From IMG/VR virus record IMGVR_UViG_3300023171_000315, positions 1 to 55,667 of that record: a DNA stretch of 55,667 nt; one strand, written 5' to 3'. The notes under the pieces are model-generated. The model made no database searches. It saw nothing but the letters and a program-made list of their open reading frames with translations, and was not told the origin of the DNA. Both the position numbers and the translations under genes were made by a program. Source of the DNA: a virus. Shown piece after piece: positions 26,806 through 46,952 of the stretch. Each line of letters opens with the position of its first letter. The first letter of the stretch is position 1.

Positions 26806-27144
26806 TTAAGCAGCCCTCCTATTCAATTTCGCATTATGCGAATACCTCAACCTGTTTGATTTATTCTTACGGGACTTACCAGTACCGAAACGCAAACCGT
26901 ATTCTTTTGGGCTTAGTCCAGCATCCTTAAATAAAAAAGGATTGAAGTCCAAACCACCATAAGCATTTACATTGATTGCTTCTTTTGATTTACGGTATTC
27001 ACGGGTTGCTTTCATTTCGCCAGTAGTGCGAACGTTTGCTTGTGCAGTTAATGGTTGAGTAGCTTGCGCGCTTCCCATTAATCCAGCTAATGCCATAGCG
27101 AACCCTGCGCCAATTAGCCCAAATCTGTTATTATTTCTTCTCAT
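26806..27144 (-). CDS. Hypothetical basic protein with hydrophobic N-terminus
   Basis: 112 aa: basic start, hydrophobic stretch GLIGAGFAMALAGLMGSAQA, then a polar basic half with FNPFLFKDAGLSPKEYGL and a C-terminal RKNKSNRLRYSHNAKLNRRA. Could be membrane-associated or exported. No family recognised. Confidence 0.5.
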   Translation of the reverse strand: MRRNNNRFGLIGAGFAMALAGLMGSAQATQPLTAQANVRTTGEMKATREYRKSKEAINVNAYGGLDFNPFLFKDAGLSPKEYGLRFGTGKSRKNKSNRLRYSHNAKLNRRAA

Positions 27145-27661: not shown

Positions 27662-27976
27662 TTATTCTTGATCCTCTTTAGGCAACGTGAATGTTGTTTT
27701 GAATAAATCGAAGAATACATTTTCACATAAGTGTTTGCATATTTCTTTAGTGGGAAATACTCGGCGGGAACCGACATGCGAGAAGGCGATGTCGTAGTAG
27801 TAGTCGATAGACGAGAACCCAGAACCCGAACTTGGCGATAAGTCAAACCAAGGGTAATATTTACGCTGATCCCAATCAGTCCAATCAATTGTTTTGCCTT
27901 CAGATAGCCAAGAAGCTTTGCTTATCATCCAAATCTTAAATTCAGCAATGGCAAGCTGCTTTATCAGCTTCGTCAT
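27662..27976 (-). CDS. DGR variable protein (remote target 3)
   Basis: 104 aa with the Bacteroidota DGR-target signature YYPWF followed by a SSGSGFS-type entry and VGSR exit. The variable repeat (27766-27831) covers about residues 49-70; its differences from the template are all at template adenines. Smaller than the two targets next to the reverse transcriptase, and separated from it by about 17 kb. Expected to display a C-type-lectin-like ligand-binding surface. Ends with KEDQE. Confidence 0.85.
   Translation of the reverse strand: MTKLIKQLAIAEFKIWMISKASWLSEGKTIDWTDWDQRKYYPWFDLSPSSGSGFSSIDYYYDIAFSHVGSRRVFPTKEICKHLCENVFFDLFKTTFTLPKEDQE
27766..27831 (-). repeat. DGR variable repeat VR3
   Basis: 66 nt aligned without gaps to the template repeat at 45160-45225. 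Over the 50-nt core I count nine substitutions, all at template adenines, plus two A-to-G changes upstream. The 3' end reads TTCCCGCC where the template has TTCCCAAA, the expected IMH/IMH* contrast. Confidence 0.85.
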
Positions 27977-28105
27977 ATGCTGATGTATCTGGTAATAAAT
28001 TCGGATCTCTACCCAAAATTTTGCAAATGTCCTCCCATGAGGTTACGTCTAAAATTTTCATATATTCTATTTTTTAATTGGTGTCAATCAAATGTTGGCA
28101 GGTGT

Positions 28106-28140
28106 AAAAAAAGTACGCTGAGGAACCACTCTCAACGTAC
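28106..28140 (-). terminator. Strong intrinsic terminator of the ncRNA locus
   Basis: Minus-strand GTACGTTGAG and CTCAGCGTAC arms around AGTGGTTC, followed by TTTTTTT. It ends the transcript that runs from the motif-A promoter through about 0.8 kb with no credible protein gene. Confidence 0.85.
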
Positions 28141-28905
28141 TAACCTAAACCAACTAAACTGCGCCTTACACGCTTTACCTTTGCCTCATCCTATCGGATT
28201 GCCCAGCGAATGGGGACTTTTAATTCGGTACGGGGCTCCCCTGCTACTAGTTATCAGATTTCGTATGTAATTCGACTGTCCCTCTTTATTAAGCTTCTCA
28301 AACAGTGTCGAAGCAGCTACGTATTTAGCGCGTTATCCTTTCCGAATCGTACTCAGCCTCACTCATGATTATGGCCTCCCTTACATACTAATTTCATCAA
28401 ACCAAAGAACCCCTATCTTGATGCATTTCTTTCGCCATGCATTGGCATTTGGTGCGGACTATTGGCACCCGAATTACCCTTACTCTAGTTAGGGCTTCAA
28501 TACATCGTTTCTAAATGTACTCGTCCAGTCCATGTGAACAGACCCCGACTTGAACGGGGATGATACCTTTGTCTGAGTGTTCTTTTAGATTAATTAATTC
28601 TGAAGGGATATCTCCCAACATTTTCATCAATCGCCTTTACGTAGATCCCAAGCTTCTCTGGCTGTCGCATTACGCTTTGAATAGGAGGTATCACGTGTAT
28701 AAACTCTAGCGTCTACCAATTCCGCCATCTGTTCAATAATAACAAACCTTCTACCTCTGAACCATACTTGCGCTGTGTAACTATGTCGGGCATCTTAACC
28801 TGATTCGGCAGGTTTGTTAACGCCAAAGCCACGACTTGTTTCAGATCGTGGCGACTTTCCCATGTTGCAGGGCTTGATTCAAATAACGTTGAGCGATTTG
28901 CTTAT
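28113..28905 (-). ncRNA. Large structured RNA (GOLLD/ROOL-like candidate)
   Basis: About 800-nt minus-strand locus between portal and DGR target 3. It has no convincing protein gene, a promoter-like element upstream and an intrinsic terminator downstream. Strong pairing is visible: TAACAAACCT/AGGTTTGTTA closing a multibranch domain, GCCACGA/TCGTGGC, CCTG/CAGG, GGTGC/GCACC, ATGCAT/ATGCAT, CGA-CTGT/ACAG-TCG, and a long-range GTATGTAA (28381-28388) with TTACATAC (28263-28270). It contains a tRNA-Leu-like skeleton. GOLLD and ROOL are large phage RNAs of similar size, often near tRNAs; identity is not shown here. Confidence 0.65.
28535..28734 (-). ncRNA. tRNA-Leu-like element with a 117-nt insert and no clear anticodon arm
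   Basis: Perfect 7-bp acceptor (GAACAGA 28734-28728 with TCTGTTC 28542-28536) with discriminator A, D arm GCG-GAATTGGTAGA-CGC, and T arm CCCCG-TTCAAGT-CGGGG. Next to the T arm TGATACCT (28693-28686) pairs with AGGTATCA (28568-28561), like a class II variable arm whose loop is 117 nt. Only 15 nt separate the D arm from this helix and they do not form a normal anticodon hairpin, so it cannot decode as written. No CCA encoded. Confidence 0.65.
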
Positions 28906-28921
28906 ACAATAATACAAACAA

Positions 28922-28946
28922 TATTCAATATATGCAATATTGCATA
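28922..28946. promoter_or_regulatory. Motif A: 25-bp dyad element upstream of the large RNA
   Basis: Plus-strand TATTCAATATATGCA plus ATATTGCATA; contains the palindrome ATGCAATATTGCAT. On the minus strand it supplies a TTG followed after 20 nt by TATTATTG, a near match to TAnnTTTG, so transcription would start near 28900. Confidence 0.7.
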
Positions 28947-28977
28947 ATAATTATTTTCACTTTGGCTCAAATGGCCA

Positions 28978-30420
28978 CTAATTGGTTATTTTCGGATCAG
29001 TTATTTTAGGAGCCAAAGCAGCACGAGCTGCTTCCTCTACCTTTATCTTTTCGTATTCTTCTTCTGGATTATCAGTAAAAGCAAGTTTGGCTATAGCCGT
29101 TTCCTTGCTCATTAAACCAGCGCCTACTAGAGTAGCTATATTCTGGTATTCCTCAGTTAAGTTGCGTGGTAATTTAATTTTAAATTTAGGCTTAATAACC
29201 ATGCTAATGGAAGGTTTGACGCTTACATTAATTACAGATAAGGCTGGCTTAAGAAAATTAAAGTGTCTTTGCCATTCCATACCCAAATCACCCTGTTGAT
29301 CTGATTCAGCTTGATTTGTAGCTGGCATAAACATCATCTCAATAGCTACACCAGGTATGTTTGAAGATCCGCTAATTTGCTCCATTGAAATTTGTGGAGT
29401 ATTAGTCTCATCATATATATCACGTCTTAAATTCTTTCGTTCTTCCGTAGCTGATGCTTGAGATCCTTTTGCTTCAACATATTTAAGATCTCCACCATTT
29501 TCTATTTCAAATGATTTTCGAGTGTTCTTCGTTCCACCACCAGACGCTGCTTCAATTTTACCGAATGAGGCCAATATAGGAAATGCACTGATTTGGTTTT
29601 CGTCTGCAGTATCTGAGTCTACCTCTTCCACCCGATCTATTTTAGGCAACACATCTGCGTAAATAGTTCTTTTTGTACCGTGAAAAACAAAGTTAGCCTT
29701 ATCATAAGCTATGGTCACGAAGGTAGGAGCTTCGTCTTTACCTACTGTGTATGTAATAATTCTGTCGGACAAATGCAGATCCAACTTTTCAATGTCATCT
29801 TCACCCACTTTAATGGAATATTTACGGGCGCAAGTAATCATATCATTATAACGATTGTAGATAGGGATAGCCAAGCTGCCGTCTTCAGGACTAAAAACAG
29901 AAAGTCTCATTTTAAACTTACTATTTGGCGATATATCTCCCCAAAAACCCTCCTCTGCTGGTACACTATACCACACTGCCATACATTGAGTGTAAGTCTT
30001 TTTTAGTCTGTCAATTTTTTGACAAACATAATCGAGCTTATTGTCCTCCCACGTCTTATCCATCATAGCGGCCATAGTTTCGTCACTAGCAAAGCCATCT
30101 CTAATTCGATAGTCCCTATCGATTCCTCCTGATAGGGCCATCCTAACACTCCAGTCAATAATTATTTTCTGTGTATTTGATGGAATACGATGGACGTCTT
30201 TTTTTTCGGTACGATAAGTCATGTTGCCTGCTGCATCGTAAACCCCTGTAGCTACATCAACATCGCGCCATGGTCGATAAGACTGATCTTTAACAACCTT
30301 ATGGTTTTCAGGTTCAATATCAAAAGCATACTCTGGAATTGTCGGCGCAAGTGCAACAATCTTTTCAACTAACTTTTTTGGTTCGCCCGCTAATAACTCT
30401 TGTAGTTCCTCTATTTCCAT
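28978..30420 (-). CDS. Phage portal protein
   Basis: 480 aa from the ATG at 30420 (MEIEELQELL); a longer frame starts 27 bp earlier. SPP1-like portal features: TEKKDVHRIPSNTQKIIIDW near the start, a central stem/wing (KMRLSVFSPEDGSLAIPIYN), and a helical acidic C-terminus (AIAKLAFTDNPEEEYEKI). Forms the dodecameric ring at the DNA-entry vertex. Downstream of the large terminase with one small gene between. Its stop lies 32 bp from motif A. Confidence 0.85.
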   Translation of the reverse strand: MEIEELQELLAGEPKKLVEKIVALAPTIPEYAFDIEPENHKVVKDQSYRPWRDVDVATGVYDAAGNMTYRTEKKDVHRIPSNTQKIIIDWSVRMALSGGIDRDYRIRDGFASDETMAAMMDKTWEDNKLDYVCQKIDRLKKTYTQCMAVWYSVPAEEGFWGDISPNSKFKMRLSVFSPEDGSLAIPIYNRYNDMITCARKYSIKVGEDDIEKLDLHLSDRIITYTVGKDEAPTFVTIAYDKANFVFHGTKRTIYADVLPKIDRVEEVDSDTADENQISAFPILASFGKIEAASGGGTKNTRKSFEIENGGDLKYVEAKGSQASATEERKNLRRDIYDETNTPQISMEQISGSSNIPGVAIEMMFMPATNQAESDQQGDLGMEWQRHFNFLKPALSVINVSVKPSISMVIKPKFKIKLPRNLTEEYQNIATLVGAGLMSKETAIAKLAFTDNPEEEYEKIKVEEAARAALAPKITDPKITN

Positions 30421-30488
30421 TGTACACAAAAATAAATGTGTTGGCAATGGCTAACGGTTTGCTTTGCTTACTTGCTTGTGTTGGTAAG

Positions 30489-30873: not shown

Positions 30874-32331
30874 TTACATTGATAGAGCCCTAACACCCAG
30901 TCCTTTTTTCTTGTTGATGAAAGCTAAGTATTCAGCGGAATAATTATGAGTAATCAAATAACGCTTACAATCTGTCGCGTGACCAAATTCTTGATAAGTA
31001 ATTTTGGTAACTGGATCTTTCTTCGTTGATTTAAGTACGGTTCCGTCAGAATCTTCTTTGGTATACTGGTAATCAAATATTGACTTCTTGCATTTTGAAC
31101 TAATACCAACAGTTATTCCACTGGTGCTATTGCCTGAATAAATTTCATTTATGAAGTTTCCGGATTGGACCACCGATGGATTAACGCTCTGTATTTTAAG
31201 AATCGGCTTATAGTCTTTTAATTCCTTTAAAATATCTGTGAAGTAGTTCTCGCCTTTTTCTTTTTTTGTATCTTCCTTTATGGAAGTTTTATCACCTCCA
31301 ACAAACAACCCCGCGACTTCATCTAAAGGATAACGCTTAACAAATTCTTTTGCAGCATGAACCACACGGTTAAGTGGATCTTTCATAAATATTTCATCTA
31401 TTTGCTGAACGTGCTTGCCTTTTAATTGCCAAACTGTCCAAGGTAGATATGGGTGTACGTTCTCATCGCAAGACAACCATATAGGCAAAGATTTATCCCA
31501 AACCACATCATTTACATGCATTTCTGGCTTAAATTCTTTCCAAAACTCACCGCCAAATGTCGCTTTACCCCACTCCCCAAGAACATTCACGCGGTAAGAA
31601 TTATAATTTTTCAACCTCATTTGTTCATAGGTAGAAATAAGATTTTCATCCCTAAAGCCATAAGTACCACACGGGGAGCCAGTAATCCAATAGTTATCCT
31701 CGTACGTTGTTCTGATCAATACCACTTTACCGCATGTCGATATCTTAACAAAGCTATTTTCGGATGGTAATTTGTGGTTTTCCATCTCAACGAACTCGTA
31801 AGAATCCAAAAGCTCAGTTTTAACCCAACTTGTTTCATCAACTGGGTTCCATGCTGCAAAAATCTTCTGGCCCTGTATACCACGAAGCGACATGTTAAAT
31901 TGATCGAACTCAGCTTGCTCAAAATGATCGAGCTCATCCAGGAATAAATATTTATATGATTCAATCCCTTTAGCTTTGCCTTCAGTATCAAGACCTTTTA
32001 AAACTATTTCAGAGACAGTTCCTGCCCTATTTTCGCATAGATACCTTCTATCTTGAGTATCAAATACTTTTTCAAGCCTAGTCGTAGATACTCCTAAATT
32101 GAAAGTCTTTTTTAAGGTGGTGGGAATAATTACAGATTCTTTTCGGTAGGCTATGGTATTACTAGCTTTTACGTAACACTCCTTTGTCAATAATTGGCAA
32201 ATAGAAGCTGTTTTAGCTGCAGATTTACCACCGTAAACCAGAATTGTTCTAATTGAATCGTCCTTAATTAATTCATTAAGAATAAAATATAGCGGATTAA
32301 ACCATTTTTTATCTAACCTAAGCGGATTCAT
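30874..32331 (-). CDS. terL: Terminase large subunit
   Basis: 485 aa. Walker A-like GGKSAAKT (34-41), Walker B LFLDE with D132/E133, and a C-terminal nuclease region with an acidic D289 (SCDEN), GDKTS and HATDCKR. Motor and nuclease that packages DNA into the prohead and cuts it. Overlaps the small subunit start by one base, in the normal terS-terL-portal order. Confidence 0.93.
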   Translation of the reverse strand: MNPLRLDKKWFNPLYFILNELIKDDSIRTILVYGGKSAAKTASICQLLTKECYVKASNTIAYRKESVIIPTTLKKTFNLGVSTTRLEKVFDTQDRRYLCENRAGTVSEIVLKGLDTEGKAKGIESYKYLFLDELDHFEQAEFDQFNMSLRGIQGQKIFAAWNPVDETSWVKTELLDSYEFVEMENHKLPSENSFVKISTCGKVVLIRTTYEDNYWITGSPCGTYGFRDENLISTYEQMRLKNYNSYRVNVLGEWGKATFGGEFWKEFKPEMHVNDVVWDKSLPIWLSCDENVHPYLPWTVWQLKGKHVQQIDEIFMKDPLNRVVHAAKEFVKRYPLDEVAGLFVGGDKTSIKEDTKKEKGENYFTDILKELKDYKPILKIQSVNPSVVQSGNFINEIYSGNSTSGITVGISSKCKKSIFDYQYTKEDSDGTVLKSTKKDPVTKITYQEFGHATDCKRYLITHNYSAEYLAFINKKKGLGVRALSM

Positions 32332-33256: not shown

Positions 33257-33281
33257 GATGCTTATGCTTAGTTTACAAAGT

Positions 33282-33306
33282 TATTCAATTTATGCAGTTT
33301 TGCATA
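33282..33306. promoter_or_regulatory. Motif B: 25-bp dyad element upstream of the packaging operon
   Basis: Plus-strand TATTCAATTTATGCA plus GTTTTGCATA, differing from motif D at four positions. On the minus strand it is followed directly by TAACTTTG (33283-33276), a perfect TAnnTTTG, and the first gene begins 26 bp beyond. Confidence 0.65.
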
Positions 33307-33313
33307 TAATTTG

Positions 33314-33511
33314 TTAAATATTTTTTATTGATGGTATCGGATCATACTTTTTGATTGCGCTATAATCCTGAACGAAACCAATTGAATGCTCGAATAAATC
33401 AATATAATCGAAAGCACTTTCTCTAAATGCTTCGGGGTCTTTTGCTTTATCCAATTTGATTATGGAACCAGGCTTTAAATTGTCGAAGTAAGATTTGATT
33501 TTTGGATCCAT
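33314..33511 (-). CDS. Small hypothetical protein
   Basis: 65 aa, polar with GSIIKLDKAKDPEAFRESAF and FDYIDLFEHSIGFVQDYSAI. No motif recognised. It lies between the repeat cluster and motif B, so it may be under the control of either. Confidence 0.4.
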   Translation of the reverse strand: MDPKIKSYFDNLKPGSIIKLDKAKDPEAFRESAFDYIDLFEHSIGFVQDYSAIKKYDPIPSIKNI

Positions 33512-39250: not shown

Positions 39251-39291
39251 TAAAGATAATATTATTTATTCAATATATGCACTTTTGCATA
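39251..39291 (-). promoter_or_regulatory. Motif C promoter: 25-bp dyad element plus -7 box
   Basis: The 25-bp element occupies 39267-39291 (plus-strand TATTCAATATATGCA plus CTTTTGCATA). Minus-strand TATCTTTA (39258-39251) lies 8 bp beyond, giving a start near 39245, exactly at the first arm of leader C. Spacing is identical to motif D. Confidence 0.7.
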
Positions 39292-44075: not shown

Positions 44076-45032
44076 CTATTCTTTTGGAGGGATAAGCTTT
44101 TTAATTAGATGTTTGGTATTAGCGTGTTTACACCAACCCAGATAAGATGCAAGTGAACTTCGGTTTATTCCTTTCGCTACCTTTCTGGCAAATTCACGTT
44201 TGATGGTTGGCCTTAATAATACATGAGTGTGGTAATGCTTATAGCCTACAAAGTCAACACTGCGAGAGGCTACAGGAAACACTTGCCAGTTTTCCTTAAC
44301 TGTTAAGTTTAATCGATTAGCTAGGTATGCCGTAATGCCATTAAGCGCCTTATGCAAGTAATTTTTATCATGATGCAGTATTACGATATCATCAGCGTAC
44401 CTGAAATAATATTTAACGGCCTTTTGCTCTTTGATCCAGTGATCGAAGTAGGCCAAATAAAAGTTGGCAAAGTATTGGCTTAAATAATTTCCGATCGGTA
44501 AACCTGGTGCACTGTCAATGATACCATCAAGAAGGGCAAGCAGCTCAGTATCTTTTATTTTCTTGCGCAATAAAACTTTAAGTATTGCATGATCGACATT
44601 CGGATAGAACTTCTTGATATCAAGTTTTAAGCAATAAGTAGTACCGACAACATCGCAAAGTGCCTCACGTAAAGCTCTGCTAGCTGCATGAATACCTTTG
44701 CCTTTAATGCAACTGTAAGTGTCCGTTGTAAATACAGATACAAACATTGTCTCTAGCAAATTCATGATAGCATGGTGAACAATTCGATCACGATATGGAA
44801 GGATCGATATTACGCGCTCTTTACGTTCGAAAATAGTCCGTGTCCTATAGGTGCCCGTTTTATAAGTACCCGTAATTAAATCACGATAGATATCGGCAAT
44901 ATTTTGATCGAAGTTCTTATCAAATTCAATAATCCCCGACTGTTTTGCTTTCCCCTTGCGTGCAAGCTTATCAGCTAAAAGCAAGTTGTCTATGCTGCAG
45001 ATGTTCTCAAATAAATTACCGATTCTTTTCAT
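44076..45032 (-). CDS. Diversity-generating retroelement reverse transcriptase
   Basis: 318 aa. DGR hallmark IGNYLSQ (180-186) in RT motif 4 in place of the QGxxxSP of group II introns, catalytic LDIKKFY with D138, and YADD (212-215). C-terminus KRSLASYLGWCKHANTK is typical of the thumb. It copies the template RNA with errors at adenines and the cDNA replaces variable repeats. Downstream of the template in one minus-strand operon with two targets. No maturase or endonuclease domain. Confidence 0.95.
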   Translation of the reverse strand: MKRIGNLFENICSIDNLLLADKLARKGKAKQSGIIEFDKNFDQNIADIYRDLITGTYKTGTYRTRTIFERKERVISILPYRDRIVHHAIMNLLETMFVSVFTTDTYSCIKGKGIHAASRALREALCDVVGTTYCLKLDIKKFYPNVDHAILKVLLRKKIKDTELLALLDGIIDSAPGLPIGNYLSQYFANFYLAYFDHWIKEQKAVKYYFRYADDIVILHHDKNYLHKALNGITAYLANRLNLTVKENWQVFPVASRSVDFVGYKHYHTHVLLRPTIKREFARKVAKGINRSSLASYLGWCKHANTKHLIKKLIPPKE

Positions 45033-45159
45033 ATTATTTACAGGCCGTTAAGCCTTTGCTTTGTAGGTCGTTTTCACTTTCGTTACCAACGCCCTTATAA
45101 GTAATTGTTATTTTTTGCCAAGAGGCAAGGTCTGTGCTGACAATATTTTTAGCAAATTT

Positions 45160-45229
45160 GGGAACTGACATTCGAGTTGTCGTTGTCGTAGTTGTAGTCG
45201 TTATACGAGAACCTAGAACCTGAACCAGC
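45160..45229 (-). repeat. DGR template repeat (TR)
   Basis: 70 nt between target 1 and the reverse transcriptase, aligned gap-free with both nearby VRs. In the 50-nt core I count 17 adenines; 16 of them differ in at least one VR. Minus-strand frame gives GSGSRFSYNDY-type Asn/Tyr/Asp codons. 3' end TTCCCAAA is the IMH* variant. A plus-Thr-like frame through it is not a gene. Confidence 0.9.
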
Positions 45230-45253: not shown

Positions 45254-45628
45254 TTATTTCATAAAGCCTTTATACTCTTCCAGAAATGTTTTTCCTGCGA
45301 ATTTGGCTAGATCACGCGTTTTAAGAACAAGGCGGGAACCGACAGTCGAGCGGCCGCCGTCGTAGTTGCAGTCGTCATACGAGAACCCAGAACCCGAACC
45401 AGCCTTATCCCGCATATCAAACCAAGGATAATATTTATATTCATCCCAGTTATTCCAATCTGGAACCCAACCTTCGTTTAATACTCTGTTGATTCGAAGT
45501 ACTTTTGCAAAGCTATTGATAGCAATATCTTCTGGTGTAGTTGCATTTTGGATCGGCAATGAGGCCACTGGATCTACATTGTCAATTTTGCAGATGTCTT
45601 CGTAAGTTTTAATATTTTCTAAATTCAT
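45254..45628 (-). CDS. DGR variable protein (target 1)
   Basis: 124 aa. N-terminal half helical with KVLRINRVLNEGWVPDWNNW, then EYKYYPWF (target signature), VR-coded residues 76-98 and a helix ending KTFLEEYKGFMK. The pattern matches C-type-lectin-like DGR proteins of Bacteroidota phages. The diversified surface probably binds a receptor or ligand; where the protein is located is unknown. Follows target 2 by 11 bp. Confidence 0.88.
   Translation of the reverse strand: MNLENIKTYEDICKIDNVDPVASLPIQNATTPEDIAINSFAKVLRINRVLNEGWVPDWNNWDEYKYYPWFDMRDKAGSGSGFSYDDCNYDGGRSTVGSRLVLKTRDLAKFAGKTFLEEYKGFMK
45334..45403 (-). repeat. DGR variable repeat VR1
   Basis: 70 nt gap-free with the TR. Eleven differences in total, all at template adenines (A-to-G mostly, two A-to-C). 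Followed by GCC where the TR has AAA, so the 3' end is TTCCCGCC. Confidence 0.9.
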
Positions 45629-45639
45629 GATATTATTGA

Positions 45640-46110
45640 TTAACCATTAATAAATTCGTTGTATTCGGCAGTAAAGGTTTTGCCAGCATATTCTGCCAAT
45701 GCTGATGTTTCAAGTAAAAGGCGGGAAACGACATCCGAGCGGACGTAGACGTAGGCGTAGACGAAAAACGAGAACCCAGAACCCGAACCAGCAGAATTGA
45801 ACCAAGGGTAGTACTTGTATACGCCCGCATCTTTATAGTCAAGATACTTACCGCCATTAAGCGCATAAACAATCATCTTGCATTTTTTGTAGCCAACTTC
45901 ATCAGGTGTGTCATTAGCTGTACGCTCTGCAAATTGTTCCGCTGTTTCGTTGTGAAATGCCAGTACATCAGCAAATGACTTGAATACATCCTGAGTTTTA
46001 AGGCCCAATTCTATTGGAGTGAAATTGGCCTTTAGTAAAACATCAAGGGCAGAGTTTTGACCTAACAAACCTTTAGCCTGGTCAATGTTTAATTCAATTG
46101 ATTTTTTCAT
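45640..46110 (-). CDS. DGR variable protein (target 2)
   Basis: 156 aa from the ATG at 46110 (MKKSIELN). N-terminal helical region (DVFKSFADVLAFHNETAEQF), then KYYPWF, VR-coded residues 107-129, and a C-terminal AEYAGKTFTAEYNEF helix. Similar end sequence to target 1. Lies behind a terminator at 46143-46170, so expression relies on read-through or a weak promoter. Confidence 0.88.
   Translation of the reverse strand: MKKSIELNIDQAKGLLGQNSALDVLLKANFTPIELGLKTQDVFKSFADVLAFHNETAEQFAERTANDTPDEVGYKKCKMIVYALNGGKYLDYKDAGVYKYYPWFNSAGSGSGFSFFVYAYVYVRSDVVSRLLLETSALAEYAGKTFTAEYNEFING
45723..45792 (-). repeat. DGR variable repeat VR2
   Basis: 70 nt gap-free with the TR: 15 of 16 differences at template adenines, one G-to-T near the 3' end. 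Mostly A-to-T, unlike the A-to-G bias of VR1, giving Phe/Val/Tyr codons. 3' end is TTCCCGCC. Confidence 0.9.
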
Positions 46111-46142
46111 TTTATTATATGATTTAGTGAAATTTTGCACCT

Positions 46143-46712: not shown

Positions 46713-46753
46713 TAAAGATATAAATTATTATTCAATTTATGCAATATTGCATA
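46713..46753 (-). promoter_or_regulatory. Motif D promoter: 25-bp dyad element plus -7 box
   Basis: 25-bp element at 46729-46753 (plus-strand TATTCAATTTATGCA plus ATATTGCATA). Minus-strand TATCTTTA (46720-46713) lies 8 bp beyond, exactly as in motif C. Start expected near 46707, 8 nt before leader D arm a. Confidence 0.7.
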
Positions 46754-46760
46754 AATATTT

Positions 46761-46952
46761 TTAACGCAAATCCCATCTTTTCTCCATAATGGCCTCGTGA
46801 TTGATTTTAGGCTTAGGCAACCAATCCGATATACTATCCTCATGCTTCAGTTCGCCAGTGTGAGTATTGATAAAATACTTACCTGATTTGATGATGTACA
46901 TTGGCAATGATGCAAGGCGCGGGTCAGGTTTTGATTTACGTTTGGTTGCCAT
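46761..46952 (-). CDS. Small basic hypothetical protein
   Basis: 63 aa from the ATG at 46952 (MATKRKSKPDPRL), which starts 3 bp from the upstream stop; a longer frame exists but overlaps it. HTGELKHEDSISDWLPKPK in the middle. Its stop lies beside motif D. No function evident. Confidence 0.5.
   Translation of the reverse strand: MATKRKSKPDPRLASLPMYIIKSGKYFINTHTGELKHEDSISDWLPKPKINHEAIMEKRWDLR

Follow-up and report, generated by a model that had tools for sequence, protein, structure and literature searches.

The question posed by this locus is what occupies the roughly 1,000 bases without a credible open reading frame that separate the portal gene of a Bacteroidota phage from the small gene downstream of it. 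The window analysed here is the whole of record IMGVR_UViG_3300023171_000315, 55,667 bases of virus DNA, and within the gap one finds, in minus-strand order, a promoter, some 795 nt and a terminator, giving an RNA gene that would span approximately 28902 to 28106 (Table 1). The original prediction placed a structured noncoding RNA here, next to the portal gene and with no protein gene over 0.8 kb. The latter point stands: no credible open reading frame covers 28106-28905, the single one that overlaps it (27977-28270, plus strand) being antisense and just 97 amino acids long. As for the RNA itself, the assignment of 28902 to 28106 (minus strand) as a putative structured noncoding RNA gene can be called well supported, but what bears it out is covariation among homologous loci and not the folding of the single sequence.

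Table 1 Predicted features of the RNA gene and its neighbours in the window, in the order of minus-strand transcription.
Feature	Positions	Strand	Basis or remarks
Terminase_3 large subunit (TerL) gene	30874-32331	-	Window
Portal gene, SPP1-type	28978-30447	-	Window
Promoter, Bacteroidetes type: TTG, 20 nt, TATTATTG, then ATAAGC	28907-28937	-	Layout in 8 loci
5' hairpin GCCACG-AUCUGAAACAAGU-CGUGGC, conserved	28828-28852	-	Covariation, 8 loci
Phage-specific domain closed by TAACAAACCT/AGGTTTGTTA	28740-28819	-	Stem present; no homolog found
tRNA-Leu-like element	28535-28734	-	Acceptor, D-arm, T-arm, discriminator A
Core ACATGGACTGGACGAGTACATTTAGAAACG...GGGTGCCAATAGTCCGCACC, nearly invariant, 85 nt in window	28451-28535	-	8 aligned sequences plus L082
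Domain between core and 3' hairpin, unique to window phage	28216-28450	-	Absent from homologs read
3' hairpin, outer stem CCCCAT/ATGAGG enclosing GGGCAAUCC	28184-28215	-	Covariation, 9 loci
Small hairpin ahead of terminator	28161-28173	-	Stem sequence varies among homologs, pairing kept (by eye)
Terminator hairpin, conserved UGGUUC loop, then T7	28106-28140	-	10-bp stem including one G-U; 10 loci
Small gene downstream of RNA	27662-27976	-	Also among the diversity-generating retroelement parts

The many perfect stems cited in the original prediction are all present, namely GCCACGA/TCGTGGC (28828-28834 with 28846-28852), GGTGC/GCACC (28451-28455 with 28465-28469), TAACAAACCT/AGGTTTGTTA (28740-28749 with 28810-28819) and the long-range GTATGTAA/TTACATAC (28263-28270 with 28381-28388), but their abundance is no greater than chance would give, with 12 perfect stems of at least 7 bp against 13.2 in shuffled sequences, and a stem of at least 10 bp arising in 37 of 200 shuffles. 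The folding energy of the whole RNA is similarly ordinary (z = -0.99, minus strand). Given that stem counts and folding energy both match those of shuffles, structure read from this one sequence is in itself no proof. The plus strand folds better relative to its shuffles (z = -2.28), but promoter, terminator, tRNA-like element and the orientation of the homologs all indicate the minus strand, and a plus-strand RNA was set aside. Two of the named stems, TAACAAACCT/AGGTTTGTTA and GTATGTAA/TTACATAC, fall in segments unique to the window phage (in the homologs read, the 3' hairpin follows some 5-50 nt after the core), while the GGTGC/GCACC pairing is invariant across homologs, so that covariation is impossible for it.

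Homologous loci were sought by several routes. TerL served as bait and brought in 18 related viral loci; the portal protein, used as bait in the form of peptide patterns, gave no confirmed relative. L004, L009 and L010 were identified by blastn with the RNA region, L025, L028 and L052 (a bacterial contig) by a 16-base pattern from the core, and L074 by a second pattern. The core was then turned into a covariance model, R1, which gives E values of 5e-20 to 5e-31 in the loci used to build it and which also recovered L082 (E 2e-16), a locus left out of the model. Together with the window this makes nine core-bearing loci, the eight homologs belonging to related prophages and phage contigs. When R1 was scanned against about 1,000 Bacteroidota genomes the core appeared in three, all within one Sphingobacteriaceae genus (145 species sampled), and in none of the other genomes sampled; the match in G820 coincides with L074 in both coordinates and score. 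Since three loci thus lie in genomes of a single bacterial genus, cultured hosts may be available. The surroundings are also partly shared, the order portal, RNA and a homolog of gene 26806-27144 recurring in L004, L009 and L074, and the RNA being followed by that same homolog in L082.

The core itself hardly varies. Between the window and L010 it is 96.6% identical over 89 nt, while the portal proteins of the two are only 40% identical, implying that the core is either conserved far beyond its neighbours or has been moved horizontally. Its length is 68, 74, 85 or 94 nt, with a variable middle and very little change elsewhere, and as these variants include lengths that do not differ by multiples of three, protein coding is unlikely. 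A pairing GGACTR/YAGTCC is likely alongside GGTGC/GCACC; with so little variation to draw on, however, the core's own fold, pseudoknot included, has almost no covariation support.

It is at the two ends of the RNA that covariation can be seen. For the 5' hairpin, compared in eight loci, 91.8% of cells are paired and changes on both sides occur in six of the seven pairs, giving a covariation score of 0.619, where shuffles score 0.207 and the slid helix no more than 0.333. For the outer helix of the 3' hairpin (nine loci) 94% of cells are paired and four of the six pairs show changes on both sides; the score for the whole hairpin is 0.483 against 0.137 in shuffles, though the count of pairs changed on both sides does not exceed that in shuffles. 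The terminator was correctly placed by the original prediction, and its stem forms 84 of 84 pairs over ten loci with compensatory changes in nine of ten columns; when whole strands were swapped as a null, that degree of pairing was never reached, and the column count was reached in 73 of 2,000 shuffles. Because these terminator stems were aligned by hand, which favours pairing, and because intrinsic terminators pair in any case, the 5' and 3' hairpins, which come from tool alignments, constitute the stronger evidence. RNAalifold, run unaided on an automatic alignment, recovered both the 3' hairpin and the terminator, and covariation in homologs, the check proposed at the outset, is thus found at three elements of the RNA.

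The promoter element had been put at 28922-28946, which holds for its upstream part; a better position for the box itself is about 28937-28907 (TTG-N20-TATTATTG), with a predicted start of transcription at about 28902-28899. The same layout, with a spacer of 19-21 nt (judged by eye), is present in all eight loci compared at their 5' ends (the window, L004, L009, L010, L025, L028, L074 and L082), and corresponds to the Bacteroidetes promoter consensus. An element of the TGCAATATTGCATATATTGAATA type, seen upstream of the RNA at 28922-28955, recurs at 46729-46762, 39267-39291 and 33281-33317, and may represent a common promoter or operator of the phage. From the comparisons of sequence, then, a frame consisting of promoter, 5' hairpin, near-invariant core, 3' hairpin and terminator, sited in a conserved position behind the portal gene, is well supported.

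Between the 5' hairpin and the core lies a cargo region, whose occupants are intact tRNAs, tRNA-like elements that have degenerated or an HNH-like open reading frame. In the window it contains a tRNA-Leu-like element that the original prediction had missed, with a 7-bp acceptor (GAACAGA/TCTGTTC), a 5-bp T-arm (CCCCG-TTCAAGT-CGGGG) and an A as discriminator, and with an insert of about 106-130 nt that either takes the place of the anticodon arm or splits it. Its D-arm matches annotated tRNA-Leu genes in a blastn search of GenBank phages, which returned nothing beyond such D-arms and chance matches, and the 200-nt piece folds as tRNA-like (z = -2.15). It was not accepted as a tRNA gene: ARAGORN in its standard form finds no tRNA in the window, that is, no complete cloverleaf with an anticodon arm, and draws 28535-28734 as an intron-bearing tRNA when introns are allowed and the threshold is lowered. 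The homolog in L052, which also lies directly before the core, shows three compensatory changes, of which two fall in the acceptor and one in the T stem, suggesting that the tRNA shape is under selection or was lost only recently. There is some likeness to tmRNA, in the tRNA-like ends and the long insert in place of an anticodon arm, but the window element has a Leu-type D-arm, no G3-U70 and no tag frame that could be recognised, and no Rfam tmRNA match was obtained in the window, so tmRNA was also rejected.

In the other loci the position directly before the core is filled in different ways: by an abutting tRNA-Pro in L009 (with a tRNA-Arg further upstream), by a 52-nt mini-tRNA in L010 and L074 (ending in ACCA in the latter), by a T-arm remnant in L025, by an unassigned hairpin in L028, and by an HNH-like open reading frame in L004 (9633-10310) and L082 (833-1504). 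The label of homing endonuclease for this last was read from the sequence by eye, the frame having zero Pfam matches, and its presence in the tRNA slot may possibly reflect a homing event into the RNA gene. Intact tRNAs lie upstream within the RNA in L010 (tRNA-Trp), L028 (tRNA-Pro and tRNA-Ile), L052 and L074 (tRNA-Met in each), while no whole tRNA was found in the RNA of L004, L025 or L082, which indicates that tRNA cargo is not essential. The mini-tRNA is identical letter for letter in L010 and L074, yet their core variants differ, and the same tRNA-Pro that abuts the core in L009 does not do so in L028, where another module follows it; both patterns imply that modules move independently between phages.

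The original prediction offered two options, membership of the GOLLD or ROOL class or a new one, and it is the second that has prevailed. A search of 27900-29050 with 4227 Rfam models at E values up to 10 gave no credible match (GOLLD, ROOL, ribozymes and group I introns included), matches to GOLLD, ROOL or ribozymes were absent from eight homolog loci at E values up to 5, and at gathering score neither GOLLD nor ROOL was matched in the window or in ten kin loci. The setting is nonetheless of the GOLLD/ROOL kind, as had been claimed: a phage or prophage location with tRNAs inside the RNA is seen in L009, L010, L028, L052 and L074, with a tRNA-like element in the window. GOLLD is likewise a large phage or prophage RNA with a conserved 3' part, a variable 5' part and a linker that sometimes carries tRNAs (PMC12286853), but the present family lacks a match to its covariance model and has another core, a slot with tRNA relics or an HNH-like frame, and shuffled modules. 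ROOL too is a large RNA of phages and prophages that is often encoded close to tRNAs; again there is no covariance-model match, and in ROOL the tRNAs lie beside the RNA, whereas here they lie inside it. No description of the family was found in the open-access literature searched. The family is thus new, within a known kind of large ornate phage RNAs, and is neither GOLLD nor ROOL.

Ribozymes and introns were also considered. A hammerhead-like GACGAG...GAAAC lacks stem II and any Rfam match. A group I intron might be suggested by the P7-like feature of the core and the inserted HNH-like frame, but there is no Rfam match, the RNA does not lie inside a gene, and an abutting tRNA leaves no space for P4-P6. 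HDV-like theta ribozymes abut phage tRNAs at their 3' ends, and the phages concerned mostly infect Bacteroidota (PMC10879173). The core resembles them in this respect: in L009 it begins right at the 3' end of tRNA-Pro, and in L010, L025, L052, L074 and the window it begins where a tRNA-like element ends. By eye, however, it lacks the HDV topology of a nested double pseudoknot, it has no match among the Rfam models, it belongs to an 800-nt RNA and it also occurs without a tRNA, so that membership of the theta class is not supported by the Rfam models or by inspection of the helix order.

Taking these observations together, we think it rather probable that the locus encodes an autonomous large structured noncoding RNA of about 795 nt, belonging to a new modular family of Sphingobacteriaceae prophages and phages, and that this RNA is a scaffold with a variable slot for tRNA cargo. 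By analogy with what has been proposed for GOLLD, we infer that it would fold into a stable scaffold or particle that displays or encloses its tRNA or tRNA-like cargo. An intact tRNA may, in addition, be set free for use in translation; the tRNA-like part in the window would more likely be structural, or a handle for tRNA-binding proteins. It is conceivable, although we regard it as rather doubtful, that a modular scaffold (possibly a particle) with interchangeable tRNA or mimic cargo has as its core a new catalytic or protein-binding element working on the 3' end of the slot tRNA. No function is known for GOLLD, ROOL and other large phage RNAs of this sort, and an apparently unrelated ornate RNA, with natural swaps of tRNA, mimic and open reading frame in one slot, offers a comparative handle on the role of the tRNA.

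The main rival, unlikely in our view while still carrying appreciable weight, sees instead a phage tRNA operon with processing elements as spacers, in which the core would be a cis signal or an undescribed self-cleaving ribozyme freeing the 3' end of the tRNA, the window having lost its working tRNA. In its favour, the core of L009 begins where a tRNA ends, those of L010, L025, L052, L074 and the window come directly after the 3' ends of tRNA-like elements, theta ribozymes occupy exactly that position in phages, mostly of Bacteroidota hosts (PMC10879173), and a near-invariant core resembles a catalytic or ligand site. Against it, no Rfam ribozyme matches, the core lacks (by eye) the HDV helix order P1-P2-P3-P1'-P4-P2', a reading frame and not a tRNA precedes the core in L004 and L082, the tRNA-Pro of L028 leads into another module, and the conserved 5' and 3' hairpins would need some other reason. 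An operon of this sort is compatible with a scaffold, and both could hold together. It is improbable that the locus is a decaying, functionless remnant, in which a strong terminator has come together with tRNA genes and a gene for a homing endonuclease in an intergenic hot spot: degenerate tRNAs, high turnover and an HNH-like frame at the same spot in two loci would be expected of such a remnant, but one would not expect a core so nearly invariant, with covarying hairpins at either end of the RNA, in phages whose portals are down to 40% identical. A true GOLLD or ROOL RNA that has diverged beyond the reach of the models is very improbable indeed, in spite of the phage and prophage setting, the tRNAs inside or near, the length of 0.6-1 kb and the conserved 3' and variable 5' parts, as even permissive thresholds (E values of up to 10 for the window and of up to 5 for eight homolog loci) gave no match and the conserved 3' part of this family is short and different.

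Related phages without the core also deserve mention. In L005, L006, L008, L012 and L117, whose portals are 54-67% identical, other tRNA-holding regions follow the portal gene, and some of these kin have modules in common with the core-bearing group; patterns made for two further modules found L117 as the only new relative. In L006, L012 and L117 the coreless region is about 1.1-1.2 kb long, with tRNA-Met or -Gln, -Ala and -Trp, and has recurring hairpins with a GGAAAGAC loop. A module ACCTTAACAA...GGCGCC...TTGTTAAGGT, whose inner stems vary in sequence while remaining paired, is common to L005, L025 and L052; in L005 it follows the tRNA-Met, in L052 it precedes it. In another phage, L140, a long region poor in open reading frames (minus strand, about 1330-2350) has a hairpin resembling the 5' hairpin of the window, a 73-nt tRNA-like fold and a weak, sub-threshold match to permuted tmRNA (E 0.0012).

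The window also contains a diversity-generating retroelement (44076-45032, 45160-45229, 45254-46140 and 27662-27976, minus strand), made up of a template repeat, a reverse transcriptase gene and three genes that carry variable repeats, most of whose mismatches coincide with adenines of the template. An Rfam RT-17 RNA (45055-45132, minus strand), just over the gathering score, lies between the template repeat and the reverse transcriptase gene, and one of the target genes is remote, immediately downstream of the RNA gene.
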